From a virus: a DNA stretch of 24,640 nucleotides. The stretch covers positions 1 through 24,640 of IMG/VR virus record IMGVR_UViG_3300017744_005557, one strand, 5' to 3'. The notes below the pieces were generated by a model. The model was given only the letters and a program-made list of their open reading frames with translations, had not been told where the DNA came from and ran no database searches. A program made the position numbers and the translations under genes. Positions 39-15,765 of this stretch are shown here, one piece after another (the stretch's first letter is position 1; the number at the start of each line of letters is the position of its first letter).

Positions 39-464
39 TTAGTGATTATAGTACTTTATGCACTCAGAATAAAAGTAATGGGCTGCTGGTGCTAAATAAC
101 TTAGACAGTTGTTACAAAATTCCTCTTTACCAACCCACTTAAAGCCGGTATGTTCTAGTATTCCTGTATGTGGGTTTTTTGTAACAATTGGTAGTTTATT
201 AGTCGCAGCGCAGTATGTTGTTAGGCGACCATGTACAAAGCTATCAAACATTATTTCATCATCATCTATCATTAGAGAGCACTCTTCAAAACACTCTCTT
301 TTGGCTGCTGCTATTGTACTTTCGCCATCGTCAATTTCACCTTTAGGTATATCAAACTGTCCGTCTTCTCTTACTAGAGCCAATATTAGCGGCTCGCTTA
401 ATTCCACTGTGTCTTTTTTAAATACAATAAAACCTGCCCCAACCTTATTCGACCTATCTGTCAT
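39..464 (-). CDS. Nudix hydrolase
   Basis: 141 aa, a full-length minimal Nudix domain. The Nudix box is visible at residues 42-64: G42, five residues, E48, seven residues, then REcfEE (56-61). The usual Gly near the end of the box is Ser63, a common variation. The family hydrolyses nucleoside diphosphates linked to another group (NDP-sugars, dinucleoside polyphosphates, oxidised NTPs); the substrate cannot be read from sequence. It is the last gene of the region 1 operon, and its start lies inside the end of the cupin gene (11-nt overlap), so translation is probably coupled. Next to sugar-phosphate enzymes, a sugar-nucleotide substrate is plausible but is inference. Confidence 0.88.
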   Translation of the reverse strand: MTDRSNKVGAGFIVFKKDTVELSEPLILALVREDGQFDIPKGEIDDGESTIAAAKRECFEECSLMIDDDEIMFDSFVHGRLTTYCAATNKLPIVTKNPHTGILEHTGFKWVGKEEFCNNCLSYLAPAAHYFYSECIKYYNH

Positions 465-789
465 AATCGTCCTCTAGCCTAACAACATCGCTTAAATGGT
501 TAGTACTGACCTCAACAATTTTTGCGTATCTTTTTTCTGTAGCACCAAATCTGTGAATTTGACCTACAGCGACGTGTATCGTATCACCTGGGTAATACAA
601 TTTCTTATTATCATCCTTGTCATAATTTACCAAAATACCCTCCATAACATAAATAGTCTCTTCTTTTTCTTGATGATACTGCTTAGAGAGTCTATGACCA
701 GGATTTATTACCAGTATTTTTCCAACGTAGTCTTTTGTTTCGGCCCAAATTTCTTCATGTCCCCATGGTTTCTTTACAATTCTACCCAT
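454..789 (-). CDS. Cupin, mannose-6-phosphate isomerase-like
   Basis: 111 aa from ATG at 789; an ATG-like start 18 nt further up would sit deeper inside the upstream gene. The protein opens KPWGHEEIW, has PGHRLSKQYHQEKEE (30-44) with a metal-ligand His39 and the acidic residues after it, VMEG (48-51) and a second His cluster IHVAVGQIHRF (71-81). This matches the single-domain cupin of type II mannose-6-phosphate isomerase / GDP-mannose pyrophosphorylase C-termini. The likely reaction is fructose-6-P to mannose-6-P isomerisation, though many small cupins of this kind are untested. It overlaps the nucleotidyltransferase by 8 nt and the Nudix gene by 11 nt. With the phosphomannomutase upstream it suggests a mannose-phosphate route. 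Confidence 0.8.
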   Translation of the reverse strand: MGRIVKKPWGHEEIWAETKDYVGKILVINPGHRLSKQYHQEKEETIYVMEGILVNYDKDDNKKLYYPGDTIHVAVGQIHRFGATEKRYAKIVEVSTNHLSDVVRLEDDYDR

Positions 790-1273
790 CTGAAGACTCC
801 TCAGCACTTTTTATTAACCAGGATGAGCTTTGTATTTTCCCACCGCCAACATTAAATAGCACTTCACACCCTACTTTTTGACAGATATTCCATTCTGCTA
901 CTTCCTCAGGTTTGGCTCTATCTCCGCCTTTCGTAAAAAAGTTAGGCTTAAGTCTCTCCACAGCACCAACAACAGTTTGAGTACCATCATCCCAAATTAT
1001 AGCAGCGTCAACCCCTCGAATACCAGCGATTATTTCTGCTCTTTCTTCTTGGTTCATAAATGGCTTTCCTTTTTTTCTTCGAAGAAAGCCATCACCATTA
1101 ACCATGATCACCACATATCCTCCGTCTTCTTCTGCAAGATCGACTGTACCTAATATGCATCTAAGGTGACCGATATGTAATGGGTCAAATCCACCGCTTG
1201 TCATGTAGACTGGTGAATCTTTAAACATTTCTTTCTCTTTTAAAAATTGATCTATGTTTTGATAAACTTTCAT
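782..1273 (-). CDS. HIGH-motif nucleotidyltransferase (cytidylyl/adenylyltransferase-like)
   Basis: 163 aa. The N-terminal half has GGFDPLHIGHLR (27-38) with the H33-x-G-H36 motif of the nucleotidylyltransferase superfamily, and the C-terminus has KIQSSSWLI, equivalent to the (I/K)xSST(x)L signature. Length and motif spacing fit the HldE/RfaE C-domain and TagD group, which transfer AMP or CMP onto a sugar- or polyol-phosphate. The exact nucleotide and acceptor are not deducible. Its ATG overlaps the helicase stop (ATGA, 1270-1273), indicating coupling. Neighbours (cupin isomerase, phosphomannomutase) suggest it activates a sugar-phosphate for glycosylation or DNA/capsule modification; that role is inferred. 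Confidence 0.82.
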   Translation of the reverse strand: MKVYQNIDQFLKEKEMFKDSPVYMTSGGFDPLHIGHLRCILGTVDLAEEDGGYVVIMVNGDGFLRRKKGKPFMNQEERAEIIAGIRGVDAAIIWDDGTQTVVGAVERLKPNFFTKGGDRAKPEEVAEWNICQKVGCEVLFNVGGGKIQSSSWLIKSAEESSDG

Positions 1274-2907
1274 TTTTTTAATGACTCCTTAAACGTCTGT
1301 GGAAACATATTCCTGTTAGAATTGTAGAATCTTTCAAAATCAGAATCTAAGATGTATGTAACAGCTGTATCATCCTTTGATCTAACTGATCTACCAACAG
1401 CTTGTAAAATAGTTTTAGCGGTTTGTAACGGATACCACCACTTCCACTTATACATTTTTTTCTTAACAAGTTTATCGCCTAAGTATGGATATGGAACTTT
1501 ACATATTACTTGAAATCTGCTTAAGTTGCCTTTAAGATCCACACCTTCAGCCATAGAGGGTGATAATAGTACTGATGCCGACTTAGACTTTTTATGCTTT
1601 TCTAAAATTATATCTCTATTGCTAGAGTTATGGATTAGTAGTCTAGAGCTTCTTATATTCTTCTTAAGATAATTTGCAACCTTATACGAGTGACAATGGA
1701 TAATACCTTTTTCGCCTTTATGTTGTGCAAGTATAGCCTTTACAGCTTCAGCCATCCTTGGCAAAGTATCATTGATTGACGATGCATTCATCTTTCCAAT
1801 ACCACTGTACATTATAGGACGGTTCTCTACAGGGAAAGGCGAAGGTAGAGAAATAAAAGCTGCGGATTCTTTAGGGATACCGACACACTCCATAAACGCA
1901 TCTTTGTCTATAATAGTAGCAGACATCATAATGATTGTATCACCATGATCGTATAGCATTTCATGAGTGTAAGGTGCGATATCGATAGGTTTAAATTGAA
2001 TCTTTCTGCTACTCTTAGAATAAGAATCCGCAGCTATTTCGCTAAGTACCCAGTTATCTTTGTCATAAAGATCAAGAAACCTTTTTACCTTACATACATG
2101 CTTATCAAGCATTTCAAACTTTTTCGCCACAGACGCAAACTCACCCGACTTTATTTTGTCTGCTAGTCCTATGTACTTACCCATCATTTTTTCCAAGTGC
2201 TTAAGTTTCGAGGATATTGTCGGGACGTACGTATTACTAATCCAATTGATATACTGAAGTTGGGTAAAGCTTTCAGGCAAAGAAAAGTTTAGGAAAGACT
2301 TACAAAATCTTTCGGATATTGTTACCTCAACAAACTTGCTTAATTCGGAATCAACGTTATGGGCCTCATCAATTACTAGTACTTTCCTTGGTAGTATTTT
2401 TCCAGAGTATTGTGTCTCAGCTAAAAAGTACGGAAAGTTTGTAACGCCCTCTTTGGATTCTACAAATCTGGTTTTTTCATTTCTATAGACGCAGTTAAAG
2501 GTGCAAGACTTCCAGAACCGACCACCTTTTTCTGCTGTCTTTAAAGCCCTTAGACTTTCCCCACATGATGTTTTCTTATTAAAGTTGCATGTATAGTTTG
2601 ATGAAGACTTAATCGACTTCATTGGCCCTTTAAAGCCCCCAAAGTCTTCTATGTATTGATCTTGAAGGATTTTCTGTGTAGTTAAAAAATGCGCACCAGA
2701 CTCTTTTTCCGAGGCACCAGACAAGTCTTTATAAAGACATCTTGCAACTGTCAAGCCAATAGCAGATTTACCAACGCCAGTACCGGCCTCGATAATTATG
2801 AACTTTTTACCTTCTTTCCTTACAGCGTTAAGTGCGAAATCAATAGCCATTTGCTGCTGTTCTCTTACACTGCTATAGGGAAAATACTTCTTAACTTCTT
2901 GATTCAT
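1270..2907 (-). CDS. XPD/DinG-family superfamily 2 helicase with Fe-S cysteines
   Basis: 545 aa. Walker A is EAGTGVGKS (40-48). Four Cys at about 107, 115, 135 and 139 sit between motifs I and II, exactly where XPD/DinG/Rad3 helicases hold a 4Fe-4S cluster. The DEAH box is VIDEAHN (178-184). Later motifs include MMSATI and the motif VI-like QAVGRSVRS near the C-terminus. The family unwinds DNA 5' to 3', including R-loops and damaged substrates. I start at ATG 2907 because AGGAG lies 6 nt upstream; a TTG at 2913 would sit on the ribosome site. It is an unusual neighbour for sugar genes, and its stop overlaps the nucleotidyltransferase start. A replication or recombination role is inferred from the family. 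Confidence 0.9.
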   Translation of the reverse strand: MNQEVKKYFPYSSVREQQQMAIDFALNAVRKEGKKFIIIEAGTGVGKSAIGLTVARCLYKDLSGASEKESGAHFLTTQKILQDQYIEDFGGFKGPMKSIKSSSNYTCNFNKKTSCGESLRALKTAEKGGRFWKSCTFNCVYRNEKTRFVESKEGVTNFPYFLAETQYSGKILPRKVLVIDEAHNVDSELSKFVEVTISERFCKSFLNFSLPESFTQLQYINWISNTYVPTISSKLKHLEKMMGKYIGLADKIKSGEFASVAKKFEMLDKHVCKVKRFLDLYDKDNWVLSEIAADSYSKSSRKIQFKPIDIAPYTHEMLYDHGDTIIMMSATIIDKDAFMECVGIPKESAAFISLPSPFPVENRPIMYSGIGKMNASSINDTLPRMAEAVKAILAQHKGEKGIIHCHSYKVANYLKKNIRSSRLLIHNSSNRDIILEKHKKSKSASVLLSPSMAEGVDLKGNLSRFQVICKVPYPYLGDKLVKKKMYKWKWWYPLQTAKTILQAVGRSVRSKDDTAVTYILDSDFERFYNSNRNMFPQTFKESLKK

Positions 2908-2953
2908 ACGCAACTCCTGATAATGATAATTGTAACAAGGAGCAGCTATATGT

Positions 2954-3760
2954 TCAGGTCTGTAAATCCTCTATAAAGCCATTGATTAGATTAATCGTTT
3001 CGCTAGTGTCATGAATATGAAAAGCTTTACCTTCGCTTTTTAAAGCCTCGTAAATATGCCAGTCATTTCCACCCTTTTCACAACGATCACCGGTAAAATA
3101 TACGTCTGCTCCTGGATAGTGTTTTAAGCCATACGTCTTGTCCCACCCCTTTGGATATATGTCCAAGCTTGTTGATCCTCCCAGGGCGGCCGTAAGGTTA
3201 CCTCCCAGCCCTTCTATCTCAGTGGATAGCAGTGAAGCGTAAAGATTTCTGATTTTGCTTTTATTATCTGCGTCAATCCATGCTTCTCTTTGAGCGGTAT
3301 CTGCGTCTCTACCAATAGGGCACCAGTTCAGTAAGGATCCTCTGTATTGTAAAAACGTGCCTGTATAAGGTAGCATCTTAAAGTCATTCATGATCTTTAC
3401 TTGCCATTCGACGCATAATCTAACAACTTCGTTATATTTTTTTCTGCCGATCTCATTGAGCATATCAGCTTCAGACACAAGATCAAATCCCTTACCTTGT
3501 TTATAGTCTTTCTTATGGACATATTTTTTTGTGCCATTGCATGGAAGCAAGTCTATTTTATCTAAAGGAATACCCTCTGTGTCGAACAGCGCCCCTAATT
3601 GCTCCATTATATAATCGTAGTCTGATCCTGTTATAACACCAATACGAGCATGCTTGCTAAGCTCCTTGAGGGCTTTTATCATATTGGGTTCTATACATTT
3701 TCTAGCGGGAGTTAACGTTCCGTCCATATCAAACAGGAAGACTTTTTCTTTTGTTGTCAT
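2954..3760 (-). CDS. Phosphomannomutase, eukaryotic-type HAD (PMM family)
   Basis: 268 aa from ATG 3760, which has GAGAG about 9 nt upstream; an ATG at 3775 adding five residues is the alternative. The HAD nucleophile motif FDMDGTLTP is at residues 10-18, ITGSD follows near 44, then TGTFLQYRGSLLNWCPIGR, IYPKGWDKTYGL and FTGDRCEKGGNDWHIYEAL. These correspond segment by segment to human PMM2-type phosphomannomutase, including the cap-domain PIGR and the C-terminal GD...GGND acidic loop. The reaction is mannose-6-P to mannose-1-P. Bacteria normally use the unrelated alpha-D-phosphohexomutase family, so this type in a phage is uncommon. First gene of the operon, divergent from the protease gene. 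Confidence 0.9.
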   Translation of the reverse strand: MTTKEKVFLFDMDGTLTPARKCIEPNMIKALKELSKHARIGVITGSDYDYIMEQLGALFDTEGIPLDKIDLLPCNGTKKYVHKKDYKQGKGFDLVSEADMLNEIGRKKYNEVVRLCVEWQVKIMNDFKMLPYTGTFLQYRGSLLNWCPIGRDADTAQREAWIDADNKSKIRNLYASLLSTEIEGLGGNLTAALGGSTSLDIYPKGWDKTYGLKHYPGADVYFTGDRCEKGGNDWHIYEALKSEGKAFHIHDTSETINLINGFIEDLQT

Positions 3761-3807
3761 TGAATATACTCTCATCTTTCATATTTAAAGTTTAAAGGGG
3801 GAATAAA

Positions 3808-4596
3808 ATGCCAAGCACTAGAAACATAGTATCTTCTATCTTCTTTAGCCTTGTTGTTCTGCTTCTTACCCTTACAGGATGCCTTAATCTTAAGATACCA
3901 AGTAAGATAATAAGAACATCGAACAACACTGTAATAAAAAAAGCAAACACTCTTTTTCCAATCAGATCATTCGTTATAATAAATCAACAGTTCATATTTC
4001 ATTCAAACGTTTGTGTAGAAGGTGACTGCAGCAAAAGAGTAGTAGGATCTAACGGATCAACAGGATCAGGATTTGTTGTTAAAAGTGGTAAAGACCTATC
4101 ATATATTATAACAGCAGGTCATGTTTGTGCACCAAATCCGGAAGCCTTTCTATCTACGGTTACGAATGTTGATGTATCTTACAGAACAGACTTAACCTCT
4201 GGTTTTGGAAGAACTTCGACAGCTGAGATTATAGCTGTAGACAGCAATAATGATATATGCTTGCTTAAATCAACAAAGAATATGGGCCCAGCACTAAAGA
4301 TAAGTAACAGTGACGTCTTGCTACATGAAGAAGTATATAATATGGCTAGTCCTGCTGGTTTAGCAAGCCCTCTAGCCGTGCCTGTATTTAAAGGATATTA
4401 TGTTGGTGATGTGGCAACACTTAGCATATTCTCAATACCTGCAGTCCCGGGGTCCAGTGGGTCCCCAATAATGACTAAAAATAATGAGGTTGTGTCTATA
4501 GTATCTGCAGCTGCTGTAAGATTCGATGAATATGCCATAGGTCCGCAAACAAAGGCTCTTAGAGAATTTTTACTAGCCAACCTACCTGAAGATTAA
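3808..4596 (+). CDS. Lipoprotein trypsin-like serine protease
   Basis: 262 aa. Hydrophobic signal peptide (residues 9-24) ends in a lipobox LTLTGC with Cys25, so the mature protein should be lipid-anchored in the envelope. Catalytic triad in S1/HtrA order: ITAGHVC (H105), SNNDICLLK (D149) and GSSGSP (S217). No PDZ domain follows, so it is a bare protease domain with a linker of about 60 residues. The start has a strong AAAGGGGG ribosome site. It is the only long plus-strand gene here, divergent from the sugar operon and converging (15-nt overlap) on the next gene, which suggests independent, moron-like expression. Possible roles, all inferred: remodelling the host envelope, superinfection exclusion or stress protection. 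Confidence 0.88.
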   Translation: MPSTRNIVSSIFFSLVVLLLTLTGCLNLKIPSKIIRTSNNTVIKKANTLFPIRSFVIINQQFIFHSNVCVEGDCSKRVVGSNGSTGSGFVVKSGKDLSYIITAGHVCAPNPEAFLSTVTNVDVSYRTDLTSGFGRTSTAEIIAVDSNNDICLLKSTKNMGPALKISNSDVLLHEEVYNMASPAGLASPLAVPVFKGYYVGDVATLSIFSIPAVPGSSGSPIMTKNNEVVSIVSAAAVRFDEYAIGPQTKALREFLLANLPED

Positions 4597-5460: not shown

Positions 5461-6012
5461 TTACTTTAGACGCTGACGTAGTAGATAAGCGTAGTTTTCA
5501 TGAGTGTCGACAAGCCCAGCTAGCATATTGTCCATCCCGTAGGTTAGCACATCAAGACCTTCTAGCGTTTTAGCAGTTCCTTCACCAATACTAACAAGGT
5601 GTTTTGTATACTCTAGAGCTAGCGCCGCGATGCGCTCGGATGTTTGATCTGAAGGTGACTCCCAATCCTCGAGTATGATCATGGCATCTGATGTAATCTT
5701 CATTGGACATGCGATCGCTTCATCTTGATAAACGCCCACTCCTTTTTCGATTACTCCATCTATGACATCTTGTACTTCGTTGTAAATCTTTCCATAGATA
5801 ACAACGTGGTCACCAGCAAATGATGGTCCCTTTACAACGTTATGAGCGCCATGCATCCATAAGTGATAAGCTCTTAAAAATCCAATATACGCAGATAAAA
5901 TCTCTGAAGGTGACGGACCCATAAGATCTTCTAGTACATTAATATCTACTACAGCACCTGGCATTTCTTCAATTGGTGAACCGCAAGACCCGCAGCATTC
6001 TTTTAACTTCAC
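5461..6012 (-). CDS. Dps/ferritin-like protein with N-terminal CCxxC
   Basis: 183 aa from GTG (GTGA overlap with the upstream gene; AGGAG 8 nt upstream). Residues 57-69, HNVVKGPSFAGDH, match the Dps ferroxidase signature HWNxxGxxFxxxH, with identical H-x11-H spacing, and a D-x3-E pair (D85, E89) follows as in Dps, one residue further on than usual. The C-terminal helix LAGLVDTHENYAYLLRQ resembles the last Dps helix. Dps proteins oxidise iron in 12-mers and protect DNA. The extra N-terminus KECCGSCGSP looks like a metal- or redox-active Cys cluster, not standard for Dps. It lies directly downstream of the tagged-protein cluster. Assigned by motif only; the fold is likely, iron activity is inferred. 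Confidence 0.66.
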   Translation of the reverse strand: MKLKECCGSCGSPIEEMPGAVVDINVLEDLMGPSPSEILSAYIGFLRAYHLWMHGAHNVVKGPSFAGDHVVIYGKIYNEVQDVIDGVIEKGVGVYQDEAIACPMKITSDAMIILEDWESPSDQTSERIAALALEYTKHLVSIGEGTAKTLEGLDVLTYGMDNMLAGLVDTHENYAYLLRQRLK

Positions 6013-6335
6013 GTGTCACTCTCCTGTTCCATACGTTTCATCTTATAGTCAAGGTAATGATATACCTTCCCGATGTTCTCAGCAGCCACTGCGACCTTTG
6101 ATTGCACCCATTCTGGTAGGTCATCATCATCCATAAGCTGATCGTGCAAAGACTGTGAGTATCTAGCGAGTTTATCTAACTGAGACTTCGTCATGCGACC
6201 TTCACCTTCGCCATATCCAAGATCCCTACCATGATCGTCATGATGATCATCAACAGGTAAGATTTCTTCAATAACATCTTCTAAAGACAGCTGTTCTTTA
6301 ATAATGCTTCTAAGTTGTGTTCTAGTGATTTTCAT
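6009..6335 (-). CDS. Tagged protein 1 (MKITR N-terminus), helical LPEWVQSK domain
   Basis: 108 aa. Opens with the shared tag MKITRTQLRSIIKE (1-14), then an acidic His/Asp-rich linker (DDHHDDHG), then a helical segment MTKSQLDKLARYSQSLHDQL and DDLPEWVQSKVAVAAENIG ending YHYLDYKMKRM. The LPEWVQSKV helix pair is, from memory, a recurrent small domain in marine phage proteins, without assigned function. The tag ends I-K-E, a T4-type prohead protease site. It overlaps the Dps-like gene (GTGA) and begins inside the previous stop (TAATG), so translation of the cluster is likely coupled. Confidence 0.82.
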   Translation of the reverse strand: MKITRTQLRSIIKEQLSLEDVIEEILPVDDHHDDHGRDLGYGEGEGRMTKSQLDKLARYSQSLHDQLMDDDDLPEWVQSKVAVAAENIGKVYHYLDYKMKRMEQESDT

Positions 6336-6820
6336 TACACATCCCCTAATATGGTATTTATGATATCTTCCACAGCTGTTCTTATTCTTTTATCGTCACC
6401 AAAATCACTGGGGTCTAAACTGTTGGTTAATCTATACTTGTCAACAAATCCTACGATAGCCTGCATAATGGCACGCTCTTCCGCAGCTAAGGCTGGGTTT
6501 CCGGACGACCTCTCATTAAGGCGTGCTTGTTTGGTTATTGCCCTTTTAATTCTTGACTCCAGCTGGGTAGTGTCAATAAAGTCTCCATCAGCATGGCGCT
6601 TTACCCCTGTGACATCGCTAACTACATCTTCAAGATCTTCATCAGGTAAACTAACATCTTCATCTTCAAGATCTTCAAGCGCATCCTCGATAGGTTCAAG
6701 CCCAGCGGCGCCACCTTCGTCACTGAGCACTTTCATTACAACATCCTCAATCGTATCGTCTGTGACTGTTGCGATTTGCTCTGCTATGATTCTTCGTAGT
6801 TGTTTTCTTGTAATCTTCAT
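6335..6820 (-). CDS. Tagged protein 2 (MKITR N-terminus), acidic
   Basis: 161 aa. Tag MKITRKQLRRIIAE (1-14); here the end is I-A-E, the same tripeptide at which T4 internal proteins are cut. The next ~60 residues are strongly acidic (EDALEDLEDEDVSLPDEDLE), followed by a helical part with basic patches (SRIKRAITKQARLNERSSG, AAEERAIMQAIVGFVDKYR). No known fold recognised. The acid-rich body recalls phage core/scaffold polypeptides in composition only. ATG 6820 is 10 nt after the preceding gene's stop. Confidence 0.82.
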   Translation of the reverse strand: MKITRKQLRRIIAEQIATVTDDTIEDVVMKVLSDEGGAAGLEPIEDALEDLEDEDVSLPDEDLEDVVSDVTGVKRHADGDFIDTTQLESRIKRAITKQARLNERSSGNPALAAEERAIMQAIVGFVDKYRLTNSLDPSDFGDDKRIRTAVEDIINTILGDV

Positions 6821-6829
6821 TTGCTATTT

Positions 6830-7192
6830 CTATCCTGCTGTCGTAGCGTATACACTATATACGTCATATTGATCTACATTATCCCTCGCTTTAGCGAACG
6901 TAATGTTTTTTTGCATCATGTTTTTATCCAAAGCGCGTTGAATTTCTGGATCATTATCATCTAGCTTAGTAACTTCCCTAAAATCATCTTGCTTTGTTTC
7001 TGGCTCTTCACCTTTTAGTACAAATTCAAGCCATGCTCTGTCTCGAGATATGATCTTTCGACCGCCGTAACCTGTCATTCTATACATAGACTTCCAAGTC
7101 TTTAAAAGGCCTTGATCATTTACTTTACGGCTGCTGGTGGCTGGTAAAGCTTCTTTGATAATTCGTCTCAATTGTTTCTTTGTAATTCTCAT
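6830..7192 (-). CDS. Tagged protein 3 (MRITK N-terminus)
   Basis: 120 aa. Tag MRITKKQLRRIIKE followed by Ala15, a perfect (I/L)-x-E/A cleavage context. Body: a basic segment (SSRKVNDQGLLKTWKSMYR), GYGGRKIISRDRAWLEFVL and a C-terminus with VDQYDVYSVYATTAG. No known domain. Unlike most tagged paralogues the body is near neutral or basic. The two conservative K/R swaps in the tag (R2, K5) keep its charge pattern, which argues that the tag is selected as a peptide and not just as DNA. Confidence 0.8.
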   Translation of the reverse strand: MRITKKQLRRIIKEALPATSSRKVNDQGLLKTWKSMYRMTGYGGRKIISRDRAWLEFVLKGEEPETKQDDFREVTKLDDNDPEIQRALDKNMMQKNITFAKARDNVDQYDVYSVYATTAG

Positions 7193-7201
7193 AGCGTAAC
7201 C

Positions 7202-7873
7202 TTAGTCGTACATTGATGGAGTACGCTGGACAGGAGGGCTTTTCTTTCTTAGTTTTGCTTTTCCAGCAGAAAGAATTTCTTCGATATCCGTAATAGATAG
7301 ACCAGCACGTTTTATTTGATCTGCTGTGATGTTTGCGTAATCGACCCCACCAACGCTAGGGTCGCTATAATCAATATCAATCCGTACAGGAACGCCACCC
7401 GTCTTTCTAATTTGGTAAGTTATATTCTTAATGTCATCAAAGTCTATATAGTCCATCGTAAGAGAGTTACCAATGACTTCTCTTTCCTTGACACCCGGAT
7501 CAGACTTGTGTTTGCTATCAGAAGCAGCACCTTGGCTATCTAGCCAGGCTGTTTCCAGATCTTTAATAAACTTATAGACTTTATCGGCATTCCAATTATC
7601 AGGGACTACAGAGTCTTTTGTAAAGCGGTCTTCACCACCGCCGACGTACTTGACCAATCCCTTCATTTCGTCCAAGTCCAGATCTAGATTTTCATGATTG
7701 ACGCTGCTATCAGAAAGAGCACCTTTGATATCATTTGTCAAAGCGTAGTTAGCAATCCGGTTCATCGTTTCAAAGTTTTCAAATCGACTGACAATAATTG
7801 GAAGCATCTCTTTGCTTTCGGTAAAAAGAGCTTCTTTAAGGATTGATCTGATATGACTTCTTGTAATTTTCAT
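7202..7873 (-). CDS. Tagged protein 4 (MKITR N-terminus)
   Basis: 223 aa from ATG 7873, chosen because the tag MKITRSHIRSILKE then begins at residue 1; a start 39 nt upstream would overlap the preceding gene. The tag ends L-K-E followed by Ala. The body has helical segments with alternating acidic loops (NHENLDLDLDEMKGLVKYVG), a beta-like stretch VPVRIDIDYSDPSVGG, a helix ADQIKRAGLSITDIEEILS and a basic tail KAKLRKKSPP. No known domain. Its first 50 bp are nearly identical to those of the next tagged gene upstream (7875-8204). Confidence 0.8.
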   Translation of the reverse strand: MKITRSHIRSILKEALFTESKEMLPIIVSRFENFETMNRIANYALTNDIKGALSDSSVNHENLDLDLDEMKGLVKYVGGGEDRFTKDSVVPDNWNADKVYKFIKDLETAWLDSQGAASDSKHKSDPGVKEREVIGNSLTMDYIDFDDIKNITYQIRKTGGVPVRIDIDYSDPSVGGVDYANITADQIKRAGLSITDIEEILSAGKAKLRKKSPPVQRTPSMYD

Positions 7874-7874
7874 T

Positions 7875-8204
7875 TTAGTGATACGCTCCTGTACGACGTG
7901 CATTGTGACCATTCATCTCTGCCCATAGCTCGACATAATATCCAGCGATCCCATTACGAACCAAGTGCCACGCTTCACCGCCAAAGTCTTCGATATTAAA
8001 TTGAAATGGACCTTCGCCATCGTCAAAGTCTATGGTTTGACCCTCAAGACTTTCGATCATTTCCTCGAAAGTGGTTGGGACCCCATTAATTTCTACTGTT
8101 GGACCACCATCAAATTCATCTTCTAAAACATTATAGGTAAAGGATCCTTCCGTTAAGAGAGCTTCTTTAAGGATTGATCTAATATGATGTCTTGTGATCT
8201 TCAC
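7875..8204 (-). CDS. Tagged protein 5 (MKITR N-terminus), acidic
   Basis: 109 aa from GTG at 8204, overlapping the previous stop (TAGTG). Tag MKITRHHIRSILKE then Ala-Leu-Leu. The body is acidic and beta-rich: YNVLEDEFDGGPTVEING, FEEMIESLEGQTIDFDDG, then WHLVRNGIAGYYVELWAEMN. No recognised fold. The tag-coding DNA shares a long near-identical stretch with tagged gene 4, pointing to recent duplication or exchange of the 5' cassette while the bodies are unrelated. Confidence 0.8.
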   Translation of the reverse strand: MKITRHHIRSILKEALLTEGSFTYNVLEDEFDGGPTVEINGVPTTFEEMIESLEGQTIDFDDGEGPFQFNIEDFGGEAWHLVRNGIAGYYVELWAEMNGHNARRTGAYH

Positions 8205-8689
8205 TAGTCTAACCTTATATCAATAATTTGTGGCATTGCCTTCTTTACAGCACGAAGTCCTTCGGGATACATACCACCAGGAACAGCTGTTATTGTCTCT
8301 AAAGCGCGACCTTCAGGGCTAAGAAGAACAATAACACCATCCATCATGCCGTCGTTATCTGCATTTCCGTATTCATCGTATGATTGTTCAAAAGCGTCGA
8401 ATCCCATGACAAAGTTATCAGAGTCTGGATCATATCCAAGATATGATTCTTGACCATCTTCGTATCCTTCTCGGGAAATCCAATCCTCAGCATCATGAAC
8501 ACCGCGGCCAGGTAACTCATAAAAGGTTCTAAAAACGTTTTGACCGTTGTGATTAACACCATCTGGCCACGCAGCGGAAACCGCGGCTTTATCTGGGGAT
8601 TGCATAAGCTCCACAGCCATACCAGATCCGGCTTGCTCATTTAAGCTTTCTTTAATAATGCTTCGAAGTTGCGCTCTAGTAATTTTCAT
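8204..8689 (-). CDS. Tagged protein 6 (MKITR N-terminus)
   Basis: 161 aa. Tag MKITRAQLRSIIKE followed by Ser15, again a permitted residue after a prohead-protease site. Body: DKAAVSAAWPDGVNHNGQNV, ELPGRGVHDAEDWISREGYE, then DSDNFVMGFDAFEQSYDE and VIVLLSPEGRALETITAVPG. This looks like a compact mixed alpha/beta domain with many Asp/Gly loops; no family recognised. Tag-coding DNA closely resembles that of tagged gene 1. A 98-codon frame overlapping most of this gene on the same strand is a shadow. Confidence 0.82.
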   Translation of the reverse strand: MKITRAQLRSIIKESLNEQAGSGMAVELMQSPDKAAVSAAWPDGVNHNGQNVFRTFYELPGRGVHDAEDWISREGYEDGQESYLGYDPDSDNFVMGFDAFEQSYDEYGNADNDGMMDGVIVLLSPEGRALETITAVPGGMYPEGLRAVKKAMPQIIDIRLD

Positions 8690-8692
8690 TGA

Positions 8693-8980
8693 TTAACCCT
8701 TTGCCAAAAAATCAGCTAAATACCTTTGTTGTTCGTCACTAAGCTCAAGCATGGCGGAAGAGCCAGAATCTTCAATTGGAGCAAATTCGTCAAAAGGTGC
8801 AAAATTAGTAATGACGTCTAACTCATCCGAAGTTAATTCTTCTAAAGATAAAGGAGTGTATTGTTCAAACTCTTCTGCTTTTTCGTAGAACTTGTCTATG
8901 ATATTCTCAATAACGTTTGCAAGGTCTTGATCATTTACTTCTTTAATGATCTTTCTGAGCTGTCGTCTTGTGATCTTCAT
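8693..8980 (-). CDS. Tagged protein 7 (MKITR N-terminus), small acidic
   Basis: 95 aa. Tag MKITRRQLRKIIKE, the most basic copy, then a very acidic helical body: DLANVIENIIDKFYEKAEEF, PLSLEELTSDELDVI and a C-terminal helix LSDEQQRYLADFLAKG. The strong charge contrast between a basic 14-residue head and an acidic body is clear here. No known domain. It overlaps the upstream tagged gene by ATGA (8977-8980). Confidence 0.82.
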   Translation of the reverse strand: MKITRRQLRKIIKEVNDQDLANVIENIIDKFYEKAEEFEQYTPLSLEELTSDELDVITNFAPFDEFAPIEDSGSSAMLELSDEQQRYLADFLAKG

Positions 8981-9486
8981 AATTCGCTTTCCAGTTCATC
9001 TGCCATTTCGCGGAGAGCCTGGACAGCGTATGCAATCTCTTCCGGTGGGACCGGTCCGCCCATGTTAACAGAGAAAAGACTCTCTGCAATGGCGTCATAG
9101 TATTCATCTGATTTAGCAAGGTCAGCTTCTTTAAGTGTACCGTCCTTCTCTGCTGCGTCAATAATACCTTTTTGTAGACTATCTGGAAGCTTTGTTTGGT
9201 CACCCTTAAGCGCTGGATCAGCATTATACTTTACAGTCGCTTTGTTACCGTCTTTTTTCTCGCTTATTCTTCGTCGAATTTCCTTGACAATAATATCAAG
9301 TACTTCGGGTTTAGAAACGTTTTCTTCACCGGTAAGAACCTTAACGTAATCAACCGCCTGAACAAGGTCATCACCACCAGCCCATGCATCCTCAACTGCC
9401 TCAACATCTTCTGGTCGATCAGGAAGATCAGACGCTTCTAATTCTTCCTTAATAATATTAGCAAGTTGTTGTCTTGTAATTTTCAT
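8977..9486 (-). CDS. Tagged protein 8 (MKITR N-terminus), acidic helical
   Basis: 169 aa. Tag MKITRQQLANIIKE followed by Glu15, so the residue after the putative cut is atypical. The body is acidic and helical (ELEASDLPDRPEDVEAVEDA, then LVQAVDYVKVL and VLDIIVKEIRRRISEKKDG), with a C-terminal helix EEIAYAVQALREMADELESE. No family recognised. Starts inside the stop of the gene upstream (ATGA, 9483-9486). Confidence 0.82.
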   Translation of the reverse strand: MKITRQQLANIIKEELEASDLPDRPEDVEAVEDAWAGGDDLVQAVDYVKVLTGEENVSKPEVLDIIVKEIRRRISEKKDGNKATVKYNADPALKGDQTKLPDSLQKGIIDAAEKDGTLKEADLAKSDEYYDAIAESLFSVNMGGPVPPEEIAYAVQALREMADELESEL

Positions 9487-9731
9487 CTTGTTTTCCTGTC
9501 ATAATCGCTTGATAATAGCGGAGTGATCTGCCACCGCCGCGGTTTGGAAGAAGTATATAAAATAGAATCTTCTAAGAAGAATATACCTGTAGAAATGTTT
9601 TCCATACCATCGACCTTTTTCTTAATAGAGTAGAGGCGCTTAGCCATGTCGTGTGCAGTATCCCAGGAGCTTGATATCCCAACTACTCGCTCCTTTGTAG
9701 AACTAGCGTTTTGATACCACACAGCGTACAT
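9483..9731 (-). CDS. Small alpha/beta hypothetical, untagged
   Basis: 82 aa. Lacks the MKITR tag although it sits between tagged genes. N-terminus MYAVWYQNASSTKERVVG (strand-loop-strand), then a helix SWDTAHDMAKRLYSIKKKV, then FFLEDSILYTSS and a basic tail. The fold order loosely resembles the 4857-5123 product. Unknown function. ATGA overlap with tagged gene 8 and a 1-nt gap to the next gene place it in the same translation-coupled string. Confidence 0.7.
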   Translation of the reverse strand: MYAVWYQNASSTKERVVGISSSWDTAHDMAKRLYSIKKKVDGMENISTGIFFLEDSILYTSSKPRRWQITPLLSSDYDRKTR

Positions 9732-9732
9732 A

Positions 9733-9930
9733 TTAGTCTTTTAACAGACCAGCTAATTTTTTCCATCTTTGAAGTTGTGCACCCTCACTTAATTGATCCT
9801 CAGCTTCCTCAGAATCGACTTGTGCTTCGTGTTCATCAGACGCTATTTCACCTGCATCTGTTGAATCTTCATTAAGAGCTTCAGTTATCAATGTACGTAA
9901 TTGTTCTAAAGTAAGCTTCTTAGTTTCCAT
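9733..9930 (-). CDS. Diverged tagged protein 9 (LTLEQLRTLITE), acidic
   Basis: 65 aa. N-terminus METKKLTLEQLRTLITE followed by ALNED: same pattern as the MKITR tag (basic start, QLR, hydrophobic pair, then L-I-T-E before Ala) but longer and diverged, so I count it as a ninth, weaker member. The middle is very acidic (TDAGEIASDEHEAQVDSEEA), ending with GAQLQRWKKLAGLLKD, which could be a second basic peptide. Good ribosome site AAGGAGGA upstream. Small size and charge resemble T4-type core peptides in character only. Confidence 0.75.
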   Translation of the reverse strand: METKKLTLEQLRTLITEALNEDSTDAGEIASDEHEAQVDSEEAEDQLSEGAQLQRWKKLAGLLKD

Positions 9931-12873: not shown

Positions 12874-14286
12874 TTATGCCACCGATTCCATAGCCTTAGG
12901 CCACTTCATCTGAACGACAATATCCTTCTTGTAGTTGAGCATCCAGTCTTGGATTGCACCTTCTGGCGTAACAACCCATGCTCGGGGAATACGACTTGGA
13001 CCAGGATCTGGTGCGTAGCCATCGGTAAGGATGATATAGCCGTCAAAGCTCTTACGATTCTTGACTGCATGCTTAGTTGGAGCCTTAAAACACGTTCCAC
13101 CAGCTCGAGTACGGCCAGCTGCAGGGTTCTTTGACCGCTTCCAAACTGCTTTACTCTTCTCATCTACCTCTGTATCGAAGTGATAGCACGTAAACTCGGT
13201 GTTTTTAGCTAGATTTTTAAGCTCTCCGAAGCACAATGCCAACTCTCGGTCACTTACCGACCCACTCTGGTCAATATAAGTTGCGACTGAAGAGGTATAT
13301 CCACGCTTTGCACCAGGAACAAGCCGTCCAAGAGTGCTATGGATACGACTATAAGAGGTTGTACGGTGAGCACGTCGGCTATATCCGCAAAATCTATCAA
13401 TAATCTTCTGCCACGGAACCTCTGCAACCAACGCTGCCTTGATTTGTCGCCGCAATTCAGCAGGAACGCTACCCCAAGAACCCTTGGAATCACACTCTTT
13501 AGCCGCTTCACCTGCCGCTTGCTTTACTTTTGCCTTGATATACTCACGATCTTCCTCTGACATTTCGTCCCAGCCATCATGATCGTCCAAAGTACCCGGC
13601 ATTGTAGGCAATGGATTACCATCTGCATCACAGATTTCGCCATTTGGGCCCATTGTAACGTCTCCGTCACGTAAAGCGTCGGCCAAACTCTTACCATTTT
13701 CACCACTTTTTGGGTTTTCAATGGCATCTTTAACCTCGTCGTCCTCCATCAGACGTGCGAAATACCATTCTGCGGCCATTCCCTTAGGAAAACTACCGAT
13801 TTTTTGGCTTACAGCCTCATATTGTTTGACTGCAGCTTCACCCATTTTCTCTTTTGACTCTTCAGATAGCGGCTTGAAGGCCTTTCCAGGGAACAATCCG
13901 AACTCTGGGAGCTCATCCATGAGGTGAGAGTTGATAGCAAGGTCAGTTGCGTAGTTCCAAACCTTATGTGGTTCGTACTTTCTAGTGGTAGTATGCTCAA
14001 AGATGAGGTGGAGCATCTCGTGTTTAAGGACTCCGCGTACCTGTTTACCCGGAAGAGCGGCCATAAACCGGTCATTCCAGTACATTTTAAGGTCTCCGTC
14101 CTTAGCAATAACGCCTGCAGTAGGGATTTGCTGGGTTCGGACCTTACTAAGCACTCGCAGAACCTTAGCGTAGAAGGGTTCTTCCAACATCATGCCGACC
14201 AAATGGGGCTGAAGATTGAATGCTTTACCTTCTGCCTCAGTGGCGTGCTTGAAGGGTGCGTCTGTTGCGGTGGTTTTATCAGCCAT
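12874..14286 (-). CDS. VWA-like / putative metallopeptidase protein (DUF2201-type)
   Basis: 470 aa from ATG 14286 (GGAG 6 nt upstream); a longer in-frame ATG at 14316 lies in the conserved leader. N-terminal half: KHEMLHLIFEH with HExxH at 89-93 and His98, the zincin-type motif of the 'putative metallopeptidase domain' found with VWA-like domains. Middle: an acidic linker. C-terminal half: YIDQSGSVSD, a DxSxS MIDAS motif, and later IILTDGYA, its second metal-site loop. This two-domain architecture is usually encoded beside a MoxR-type AAA+ ATPase, here at 14677-15765. The pair is thought to act as a metal-dependent chaperone/remodelling system; its target is unknown. Confidence 0.88.
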   Translation of the reverse strand: MADKTTATDAPFKHATEAEGKAFNLQPHLVGMMLEEPFYAKVLRVLSKVRTQQIPTAGVIAKDGDLKMYWNDRFMAALPGKQVRGVLKHEMLHLIFEHTTTRKYEPHKVWNYATDLAINSHLMDELPEFGLFPGKAFKPLSEESKEKMGEAAVKQYEAVSQKIGSFPKGMAAEWYFARLMEDDEVKDAIENPKSGENGKSLADALRDGDVTMGPNGEICDADGNPLPTMPGTLDDHDGWDEMSEEDREYIKAKVKQAAGEAAKECDSKGSWGSVPAELRRQIKAALVAEVPWQKIIDRFCGYSRRAHRTTSYSRIHSTLGRLVPGAKRGYTSSVATYIDQSGSVSDRELALCFGELKNLAKNTEFTCYHFDTEVDEKSKAVWKRSKNPAAGRTRAGGTCFKAPTKHAVKNRKSFDGYIILTDGYAPDPGPSRIPRAWVVTPEGAIQDWMLNYKKDIVVQMKWPKAMESVA

Positions 14287-14305
14287 TTTTACTCCGAATG
14301 CTAAG

Positions 14306-14322
14306 GGGGAAACCATTTCCCC
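14306..14322 (-). promoter_or_regulatory. Leader hairpin / upstream AUG, copy 1
   Basis: Minus strand GGGGAAATGGTTTCCCC: a 6-7 bp perfect stem with AUGG in the loop, ~23 nt after the -10 box. The AUG is in frame with the VWA gene and would add ten residues (MVSPLAFGVK). Confidence 0.6.
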
Positions 14323-14330
14323 ACCTCTTT

Positions 14331-14375
14331 ATAGTAATATTATACCATATTCTGAGGCTTTCTTGCACGATTATC
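14331..14375 (-). promoter_or_regulatory. Conserved promoter P1
   Basis: Minus strand: GATAATCGTGCAA, 18 bp, TATAAT, then ATTACTATAAAGAG. CGTGCAA occupies 14363-14369 and TATAAT 14339-14344. Drives the VWA-protein unit. The -35 differs from TTGACA but is shared by the other promoters. Confidence 0.75.
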
Positions 14376-14383
14376 AGAATAAG

Positions 14384-14581
14384 TTAGCTCTTTTTTTCTT
14401 TTTCTTCTACTTCTGGCGGTCGTAAAGTATCCATTACTGCAGTAACACGGGCATGAAGGGTCTCAAGTCGGTCCTTATAGTCTTGTTGGACCCACCCATC
14501 ATTACGAAAATTGACTGCTTCTGAGTGCCACTCTTGAATCTGTCTAATGATTTCAGTCAGGTCTTTGTTACGGTCATTCAT
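14384..14581 (-). CDS. Small helical hypothetical protein
   Basis: 65 aa, unknown. Helices LTEIIRQIQEWHSEAVNF and YKDRLETLHARVTAVMDTL, with a charged tail EVEEKEKKS. GAGGA ribosome site upstream. It sits between the AAA+ gene's terminator (14612) and promoter P1, so it depends on read-through or an unseen promoter. Confidence 0.6.
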   Translation of the reverse strand: MNDRNKDLTEIIRQIQEWHSEAVNFRNDGWVQQDYKDRLETLHARVTAVMDTLRPPEVEEKEKKS

Positions 14582-14611
14582 ACATCCTCACAGGGTTATT
14601 AGATTTAGTAT

Positions 14612-14653
14612 AAAAAAAAGGGGAGCCAGGTTAACCCAAAACCTTAGCTCCCC
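14612..14653 (-). terminator. Rho-independent terminator after AAA+ gene
   Basis: Minus strand: GGGGAGC...GCTCCCC (7 bp) with an inner AGGTT/AACCT stem, followed by eight T's. It starts 24 nt past the stop of the 14677-15765 gene. A textbook terminator. Confidence 0.9.
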
Positions 14654-14676
14654 TTTAGGGTTCCTCCCCTTCGAGA

Positions 14677-15765
14677 CTACTTGTTGGTAGTTGCTCGAGC
14701 GGCGTTAACCAACTCTACAACCTTCATTCCGATCTGCTGGTTGAGGGGGAGGAGGTTCTTCATGTTACCAGCCTTTTGAACTCCGGTAAACACCTGAATA
14801 AGGAACTCACCACCAACATCTTCAGCGAACTTAGCAATCCGCTTGACCTGTGCCGGCTTCCAGTTGTTCTCCTTACCGTGATTAGCAATCTTCTCTACCA
14901 AGCTGGCGAGTTGACTAGCAGGAGCATCTTTAACATCCTTGGCCTTAACCTTGCCATCAAGGATATCTTCTGCAGTGATCTGCAACTCGTAGTTCTTAAC
15001 GTAGTCGCGGAATGCAATTGCAGCCTCAACACCGATGAATCCAGTAAGGACACTGTAGAAGTGACCGGGGACATCATTACCAGCCAACTCTGCAGGTGCC
15101 ATATTCATATGTACCAAGGAGTCACTGAGACGGTGCCAAGATGCCGGAGTAGGAACAACGGTACCAGGCTCAACGCTAGCAGGGTCAACACGCCAGTGAG
15201 CTGGCTCTTGCTTGATGAACTCAATAAGGATATTATCCAAACCAAACTCCTCAGCCCAATCGGTCCAGTCAGCCACAGTAGGCTCTACATCACAAACCCA
15301 AAAACGACGTAGAAGAGCTGGATCCATCTCGTTGACATCATATTCATTACCTGCGTTGATAGCAGCGATAACCCGCGTTTCAGGGTGGAGTCGGTAAGGG
15401 ATACCGTCCTCGTCATTACCAAGCTCACGGTCCAGAACGATCTGGAAGAAAGCTTGCATAACGGTAGGCATTGAGCGGTTAAGCTCGTCCAGCATGATAA
15501 CGCAAGGGCGTTCACAAGCAGTCTTGAACCAGCTTGGAACTACGAAGGTAGCAACCTTCTTTTCATCTACGGCCTTCATATCGGGAAGACCACCGACCTT
15601 AGCTTCATCCATCGTAGAACCACGAACGTCGATAAACGGAATACCGAGGTCCTTAGCGATCGCCTTAGCGACATGAGACTTACCGACGCCGGTAGGACCA
15701 CGCATAAGCGCAGCAATCTCAGGAGGAAGATTAGGGATAATAGCTTTGAGAGTTGCGATGTTCAT
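14677..15765 (-). CDS. MoxR-type AAA+ ATPase
   Basis: 362 aa. Walker A GPTGVGKS (23-30), Walker B VIMLDELNRS (89-98), sensor-1 region RVIAAINAGN with N137, and an arginine-finger segment DPALLRRF (148-155). The short N-terminus before Walker A and the layout match MoxR/RavA-type ATPases. Such proteins remodel or load cofactors into partners together with VWA-domain proteins; the VWA/metallopeptidase gene is next downstream (separate promoter). AGGAG 7 nt before ATG. The start codon overlaps the stop of a 13-codon leader ORF (ATGA). Unit is bounded by promoter P2 and a strong terminator, so it is probably expressed on its own. Confidence 0.9.
   Translation of the reverse strand: MNIATLKAIIPNLPPEIAALMRGPTGVGKSHVAKAIAKDLGIPFIDVRGSTMDEAKVGGLPDMKAVDEKKVATFVVPSWFKTACERPCVIMLDELNRSMPTVMQAFFQIVLDRELGNDEDGIPYRLHPETRVIAAINAGNEYDVNEMDPALLRRFWVCDVEPTVADWTDWAEEFGLDNILIEFIKQEPAHWRVDPASVEPGTVVPTPASWHRLSDSLVHMNMAPAELAGNDVPGHFYSVLTGFIGVEAAIAFRDYVKNYELQITAEDILDGKVKAKDVKDAPASQLASLVEKIANHGKENNWKPAQVKRIAKFAEDVGGEFLIQVFTGVQKAGNMKNLLPLNQQIGMKVVELVNAARATTNK

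Follow-up and report, generated by a model that had tools for sequence, protein, structure and literature searches.

A shared N-terminal tag on unrelated proteins of large uncultured phages as a likely capsid-targeting propeptide

Results

A gene cluster with a common start and unrelated bodies

The window, by which we mean the whole 24,640-base stretch analysed here, is an IMG/VR contig and a fragment of a large phage that does not include the head genes. On its minus strand, eight consecutive genes (6009-9486) encode proteins whose first 14 residues are shared (MKITRxQLRxIIKE or close variants of it) while the bodies behind them are unrelated, and a ninth protein (9733-9930) begins METKKLTLEQLRTLITEALNE, in which the tag is recognisable though diverged (Table 1). 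The gene listed as 7202-7912 on its longest open reading frame probably starts at an internal ATG, and with this start its tag falls at the N-terminus. With the limit set at E <= 0.1, the tag profile misses the ninth protein; its identification with the core protein of the head operon was not supported by a profile comparison, which gave a probability of only 4%.

Table 1. Coordinates of the tagged genes and their untagged neighbour in the window, and of cargo bodies from other records with similarity to known domains
Feature	Coordinates	Strand	Details
Tagged gene 1	6009..6335	-	108 aa; tag 6294-6335: MKITRTQLRSIIKE, then Q
Tagged gene 2	6335..6820	-	161 aa; tag 6779-6820: MKITRKQLRRIIAE, then Q
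Tagged gene 3	6830..7192	-	120 aa; tag 7151-7192: MRITKKQLRRIIKE, then A
Tagged gene 4	7202..7873	-	223 aa from probable internal ATG 7873; tag 7832-7873: MKITRSHIRSILKE, then A
Tagged gene 5	7875..8204	-	109 aa, GTG start; tag 8163-8204: VKITRHHIRSILKE, then A; later LLTE, then G
Tagged gene 6	8204..8689	-	161 aa; tag 8648-8689: MKITRAQLRSIIKE, then S
Tagged gene 7	8693..8980	-	95 aa; tag 8939-8980: MKITRRQLRKIIKE, then V
Tagged gene 8	8977..9486	-	169 aa; tag 9445-9486: MKITRQQLANIIKE, then E (non-permissive)
Ninth gene	9733..9930	-	65 aa; diverged tag at 9880-9930: METKKLTLEQLRTLITE, then A
Untagged neighbour, downstream of the tag cluster	5461..6012	-	weak match to phage DNA-binding (Dps-like) families
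AAA/polynucleotide-kinase-like protein	L026:4786-5502		domain match among 100 bodies
Exonuclease	L068:2280-3413		domain match among 100 bodies
GNAT acetyltransferase	L056:76-627		domain match among 100 bodies
2H phosphoesterase-like domain	L035:297-794		just below curated cut-off

An earlier note on this DNA had described eight tagged genes and a diverged ninth, bodies that are dissimilar beyond residue ~15 and mostly acidic, and tags that end in I/L-x-E with A, Q, S, V or E as the next residue, and all of these claims held. Each of the eight tags was confirmed, with a mean pairwise identity of 9.0/13 over residues 2-14 (2000 shuffles gave a mean of 0.83 and a maximum of 1.64), as opposed to only 2.9/30 over residues 15-44, such that the likeness stops past residue 14. 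When the bodies were compared with each other by BLASTP, the best pair reached only E = 0.38, and 7/8 tagged proteins have acidic bodies, that of 6830-7192 being about neutral. I/L-x-E terminates all eight tags (8/8), followed by Q, Q, A, A, A, S, V and E, and the tag pattern reversed as a control gave 0 matches. Scanning the tagged proteins of the window against Pfam and PHROG returned no convincing match.

At the level of DNA, the window tags differ from one another at 6.25/14 third codon positions, compared with 5.9/28 first plus second positions. Tag codons were also found to differ at 37% of third positions and 16% of the other two, with several synonymous codons per residue. As third positions differ most, it is the peptide that is conserved, and selection acts on the peptide rather than on the DNA.

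Elsewhere in the window, a minus-strand group (39-3775) brings together a Nudix hydrolase, a cupin, a nucleotidyltransferase and a HAD-like phosphatase, resembling a small sugar-nucleotide pathway. The sole long plus-strand gene nearby (3808-4596) looks like a secreted lipoprotein and shows the pattern of a trypsin-like protease (GSSGSP), and a similar gene occupies the syntenic place in a related phage (L167:8290-9114). A minus-strand pair at 12874-15765 (phrog_1297, phrog_1314) consists of the genes for an AAA ATPase and a vWA-like protein. The capsid gene of Rhodothermus phage RM378 has as neighbours genes with the annotations ATPase and HNH endonuclease.

Bodies are rearranged behind a common tag in related phages

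Two large phage records, G022 (110,588 bp) and G007 (280,913 bp), are close relatives of the window, with helicases at 78% and 73% identity and vWA-like proteins at 83% and 85% identity to those of the window, respectively. The untagged gene at 5461-6012 keeps its synteny in both records, at 67-73% identity. At the syntenic place G022 carries a single 201-residue tagged protein (L167:6524-7129), the N-terminal half of which corresponds to the body of window gene 8977-9486 (56% identity) and the C-terminal half to the body of 6009-6335 (58% identity), so that both bodies are tagged individually when separate and stand behind one common tag when fused. The body of 8977-9486 is also kept in G007.

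Homologues of further window genes were found in other records, being tagged for gene 2 (L013:10904-11524, in G002), gene 3 (L046, L031 and L027) and gene 6 (L071 and L040), with homologues of gene 4 present in L067, L102 and L040. Across other phages, homologues of the window bodies occupy varied positions within longer proteins, and the profile detects a tag upstream of the body in 18/23 homologues, compared with 22% of all ORFs in the set. The body of 6009-6335 is also present in the T4-like cyanophages S-H9-1 and S-WAM2, behind the sequence MKTFKQLREE. This sequence resembles MKTYQEFIAE of T4, a resemblance that may be a hint and no more, since it rests on one S-WAM2 protein; the broader proposal that a T4-like targeting sequence is widespread in cyanophages was rejected, MKTFKQL occurring on only one protein of S-WAM2.

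The tag recurs on many genes of large uncultured phages

The earlier note had proposed searching for the tag on other genes, and this check was favourable, with many other genes found to be tagged. A degenerate DNA pattern of the tag matched at least 119 stretches in IMG/VR, many of them in contigs of 100-293 kb, and the same pattern matched only 6 stretches (four metagenome-assembled contigs) in bacterial and archaeal genomes amounting to 257 billion bases. Records longer than 100 kb (n=21) carry 2-34 tags each, with 0 matches to the reversed pattern. The clear cases of tagged proteins with 60 or more residues (n=372) fall into 250 body-similarity clusters, 199 of which hold a single member, and their bodies are mostly short and in 81% of cases net acidic. 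The consensus of the tag is MKITKRQLRRIIKEE, and conservation is over by residue 22. A tblastn search with the 22-residue tag as query, which has low power, found no cultured phage. In the library searched, no publication prints the tag, although it may have been described before in another place.

Few of 100 representative bodies match known domains (Table 1). The anti-CBASS enzyme Acb1 is generally known to belong to the 2H phosphoesterases (PMC9117128); an anti-CBASS function has not been shown for the 2H-like body.

A gp21-type protease and a tagged head-operon gene in tag-bearing genomes

A further check proposed in the earlier note was the presence of a gp21-like prohead protease in the genome. 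This also proved favourable, the protease being found in G022 and G007, and the window fragment itself lacks it. The S77 family of gp21 (PF03420) scored above cut-off in 20/21 tag-bearing records longer than 100 kb and in G022 (21/22 altogether), the sole exception being a 101-kb record, compared with 4/21 viral contigs (30 kb or longer) drawn at random and 9/27 tag-bearing fragments of 30-94 kb. This association is confounded by common descent. The G022 protease matches the T4 gp21 structure 5JBL with an E of 6.7e-14.

Gene order around the protease is T4-like, running from terminase and portal through the protease, small proteins and the scaffold to a gp23-like capsid protein. The small gene between protease and scaffold, which by position is the same gene in all these head regions, often opens with a version of the tag, such as MAKMTRNNLKSLVKECLFEILLE followed by A, and its product carries two glutamates whose spacing of 8 residues matches that between positions 14 and 22 in the cargo tags. 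The tag profile finds this gene in about 12 head regions at E <0.5, some at 1e-3 or better; as the best reversed-sequence match scored 0.38, only the stronger matches stand alone. Two of the head operons contain two tandem, near-identical major capsid protein genes (L164:13111-16966 in G002 and L165:13270-17004 in G005).

Sequence patterns point to one cut site per tag

The apparent invariance of glutamate at residue 14 was at first partly imposed by the search expression, and we retested it without any demand on that residue. Among tags collected in this way, residue 14 was E in 231/240 and D in none; in T4, D at this position stops processing, not targeting (PMC9026906). A second L/I-x-E is enriched at residues 21-22, with 103 occurrences at residue 22 against 5.4 expected from shuffles, and its presence depends strongly on residue 15: it was found in 183/259 proteins with E15 but in only 14/113 with another residue there (within-locus odds ratio 17, chi-square 62). 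The dependence remained in tags that had not been used as search anchors (Fisher p 1.7e-16). After the second site A, Q, G, S and N are enriched, with E in 22/207 cases. Near residue 60, capsid proteins carry L-(R/K)-E, and the next residue is A, S, Q or T at each of the 15 distinct sites. One of these sites comes from LR756508, outside the tag-bearing group.

These patterns likely reflect one usable cut per tag, inferred to fall after E14 or otherwise about eight residues later. The earlier claim that proteins are clipped at the end of the tag (residue 14) held in part, such clipping being probable only for most of the window proteins: residue 15 is permissive in 7/8 window tags, and 8977-9486 has E with no second L/I-x-E nearby. 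Most relatives have E15, and their cut probably lies about 8 residues beyond residue 14.

Tags within longer open reading frames

Tags were also found inside ORFs, where 17/22 of those examined have E followed by N, G or S 3-7 residues upstream, compared with 11% of random positions; the same holds for 7 of the 8 internal tags at which no start codon is possible. A protein of 743 residues in G022 (L167:3599-5830, plus strand) carries a tag at its C-terminus (SILKITRQQLSTILEVAIQEG). It contains glycine-rich hydrophobic stretches, its C-terminal half is similar to an N-terminally tagged protein of 467 residues in L037, and it is conceivably an ejected or pore-like protein. Internal tags may mark chained cargo that would be freed by cuts on both sides, the least certain part of our inference, and some may instead have a separate in-frame start.

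Discussion

A putative route for tagged cargo

We consider it likely that the tag serves as a capsid-targeting propeptide and that a gp21-type protease cuts it, with packaging, cleavage and injection all inferred in the absence of virion data. The earlier claim that the tag routes a diverse cargo into the prohead and is then clipped off is supported by comparison, and is not proven in virions. In the proposed model, the basic, amphipathic MKIT(K/R)xQLRxII(K/R)E would dock tagged proteins on the forming prohead core, the docking partner probably being the scaffold or the small core protein in the head operon that bears a version of the tag. During maturation the S77 protease would cut after L/I-x-E at residue 14 if A, S, Q or V comes next, and where residue 15 is non-permissive it is predicted to cut at the second L/I-x-E about eight residues on. 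By analogy with the internal proteins and Alt of T4, the freed bodies would remain in the head with the DNA, be injected and act early in the next host. That the cargo set changes fast, with the same bodies reshuffled after a single tag or strung together with internal tags, is shown at the sequence level.

This reading is supported by the occurrence of the tag on about 250 unrelated body clusters, with a reversed-pattern control of 0, and furthermore by the S77 protease, the tag copy in the head operon, E14, the residue-15 dependence, the match to capsid-protein sites and the G022 fusion. Against it stand the lack of virion data, the absence of the protease from the window fragment, confounding by common descent, a tag that cannot be aligned with the T4 sequence except at MK and the closing I-x-E, the tag of 8977-9486 without a usable site, and E after 22/207 second sites.

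Alternative explanations

The tag could be an assembly signal only, the tagged proteins being extra core or scaffold parts that are digested by the protease and no longer present in the mature head, rather than injected effectors. One tagged protein does sit in the head operon, adjoining the scaffold, and many bodies resemble T4 gp67 in being short and acidic; however, up to 34 fast-changing bodies per genome suit cargo better than scaffold, as do the enzyme domains (kinase-like, exonuclease and GNAT), and we regard this alternative as unlikely. Still less probable is that the tag sorts proteins elsewhere, for example to a phage nucleus, the host membrane or the nucleoid, with the glutamate pattern incidental. 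The basic and amphipathic character of the tag would fit such a role, as would the many large phages among its carriers, but the dependence of the second L/I-x-E on residue 15 would be left without a reason, the capsid-protein cut-site match and the head-operon tag copy would go unexplained, and the capsid genes are gp23-like and not of the nucleus-forming type.

The shared 5' end might also be a DNA or RNA element, such as a recombination site or a translation signal, as tandem genes shuffled between genomes could suggest. This is all but excluded, given the excess of third-position differences (37% vs 16% elsewhere), the several synonymous codons per residue, and the presence of tags inside ORFs without a start codon. 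The codon data refute such an element as the main cause, and an aid to recombination remains possible as a side effect.

Relation to known systems and significance

Returning to the propeptide reading, the closest precedent is T4, where the targeting sequence of internal proteins is cut by gp21 (PMC9026906). As in T4 IPI, IPII, IPIII and Alt (MKTYQEFIAE, gp21-cut), a short N-terminal peptide that ends in L/I-x-E stands on unrelated bodies and the cargo set is variable; the window's relatives, moreover, have a gp21-family protease and a gp23-like capsid protein. Unlike in T4, the tag is longer (14-22 residues) and different in sequence, only MK and the terminal I-x-E being common to both by eye, and homology to MKTYQEFIAE is not supported. 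There are 2-34 tagged genes per genome as opposed to a handful in T4, the cut site is set by residue 15, tags also occur internally and at a C-terminus, and packaging has not been shown. We infer that the two systems likely share the same design and differ in tag sequence, cargo number, cut placement and internal tags.

In phiKZ and SPN3US, a prohead protease strips N-terminal propeptides off many inner-head and ejection proteins, as is inferred here, and SPN3US gp53 and gp54 have an identical 15-residue start (PMC5694885). However, SPN3US propeptides are mostly >100 residues with an A/S-x-E motif, whereas here we find L/I-x-E and gp23-like capsid genes, and the tag does not fit phiKZ/SPN3US-type propeptides of about 80-160 residues with A/S-x-E.

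A bolder reading is that a large uncultured T4-like clade practises modular delivery of injected proteins, using one tag on as many as about 34 cargo genes in a genome, polyproteins with protease-flanked internal tags and quick cargo exchange, perhaps with anti-defence factors among the cargo; taken jointly, these claims seem to us as apt to fail as to hold. The T4 internal proteins are the textbook example of proteins that are injected alongside phage DNA. Among them, IPI acts against a restriction system of the host, and one E. coli strain cannot be infected without IPIII (PMC9391042).

The cut-site logic yields exact predictions of mature N-termini that can be checked by proteomics, and the tag offers a new packaging peptide to load chosen proteins into phage heads. 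For the phages themselves, the tag provides a handle in sequence data by which hundreds of such cargo proteins, almost none with a known function, can be predicted from large uncultured phages, and it opens a direct search for injected anti-defence factors.
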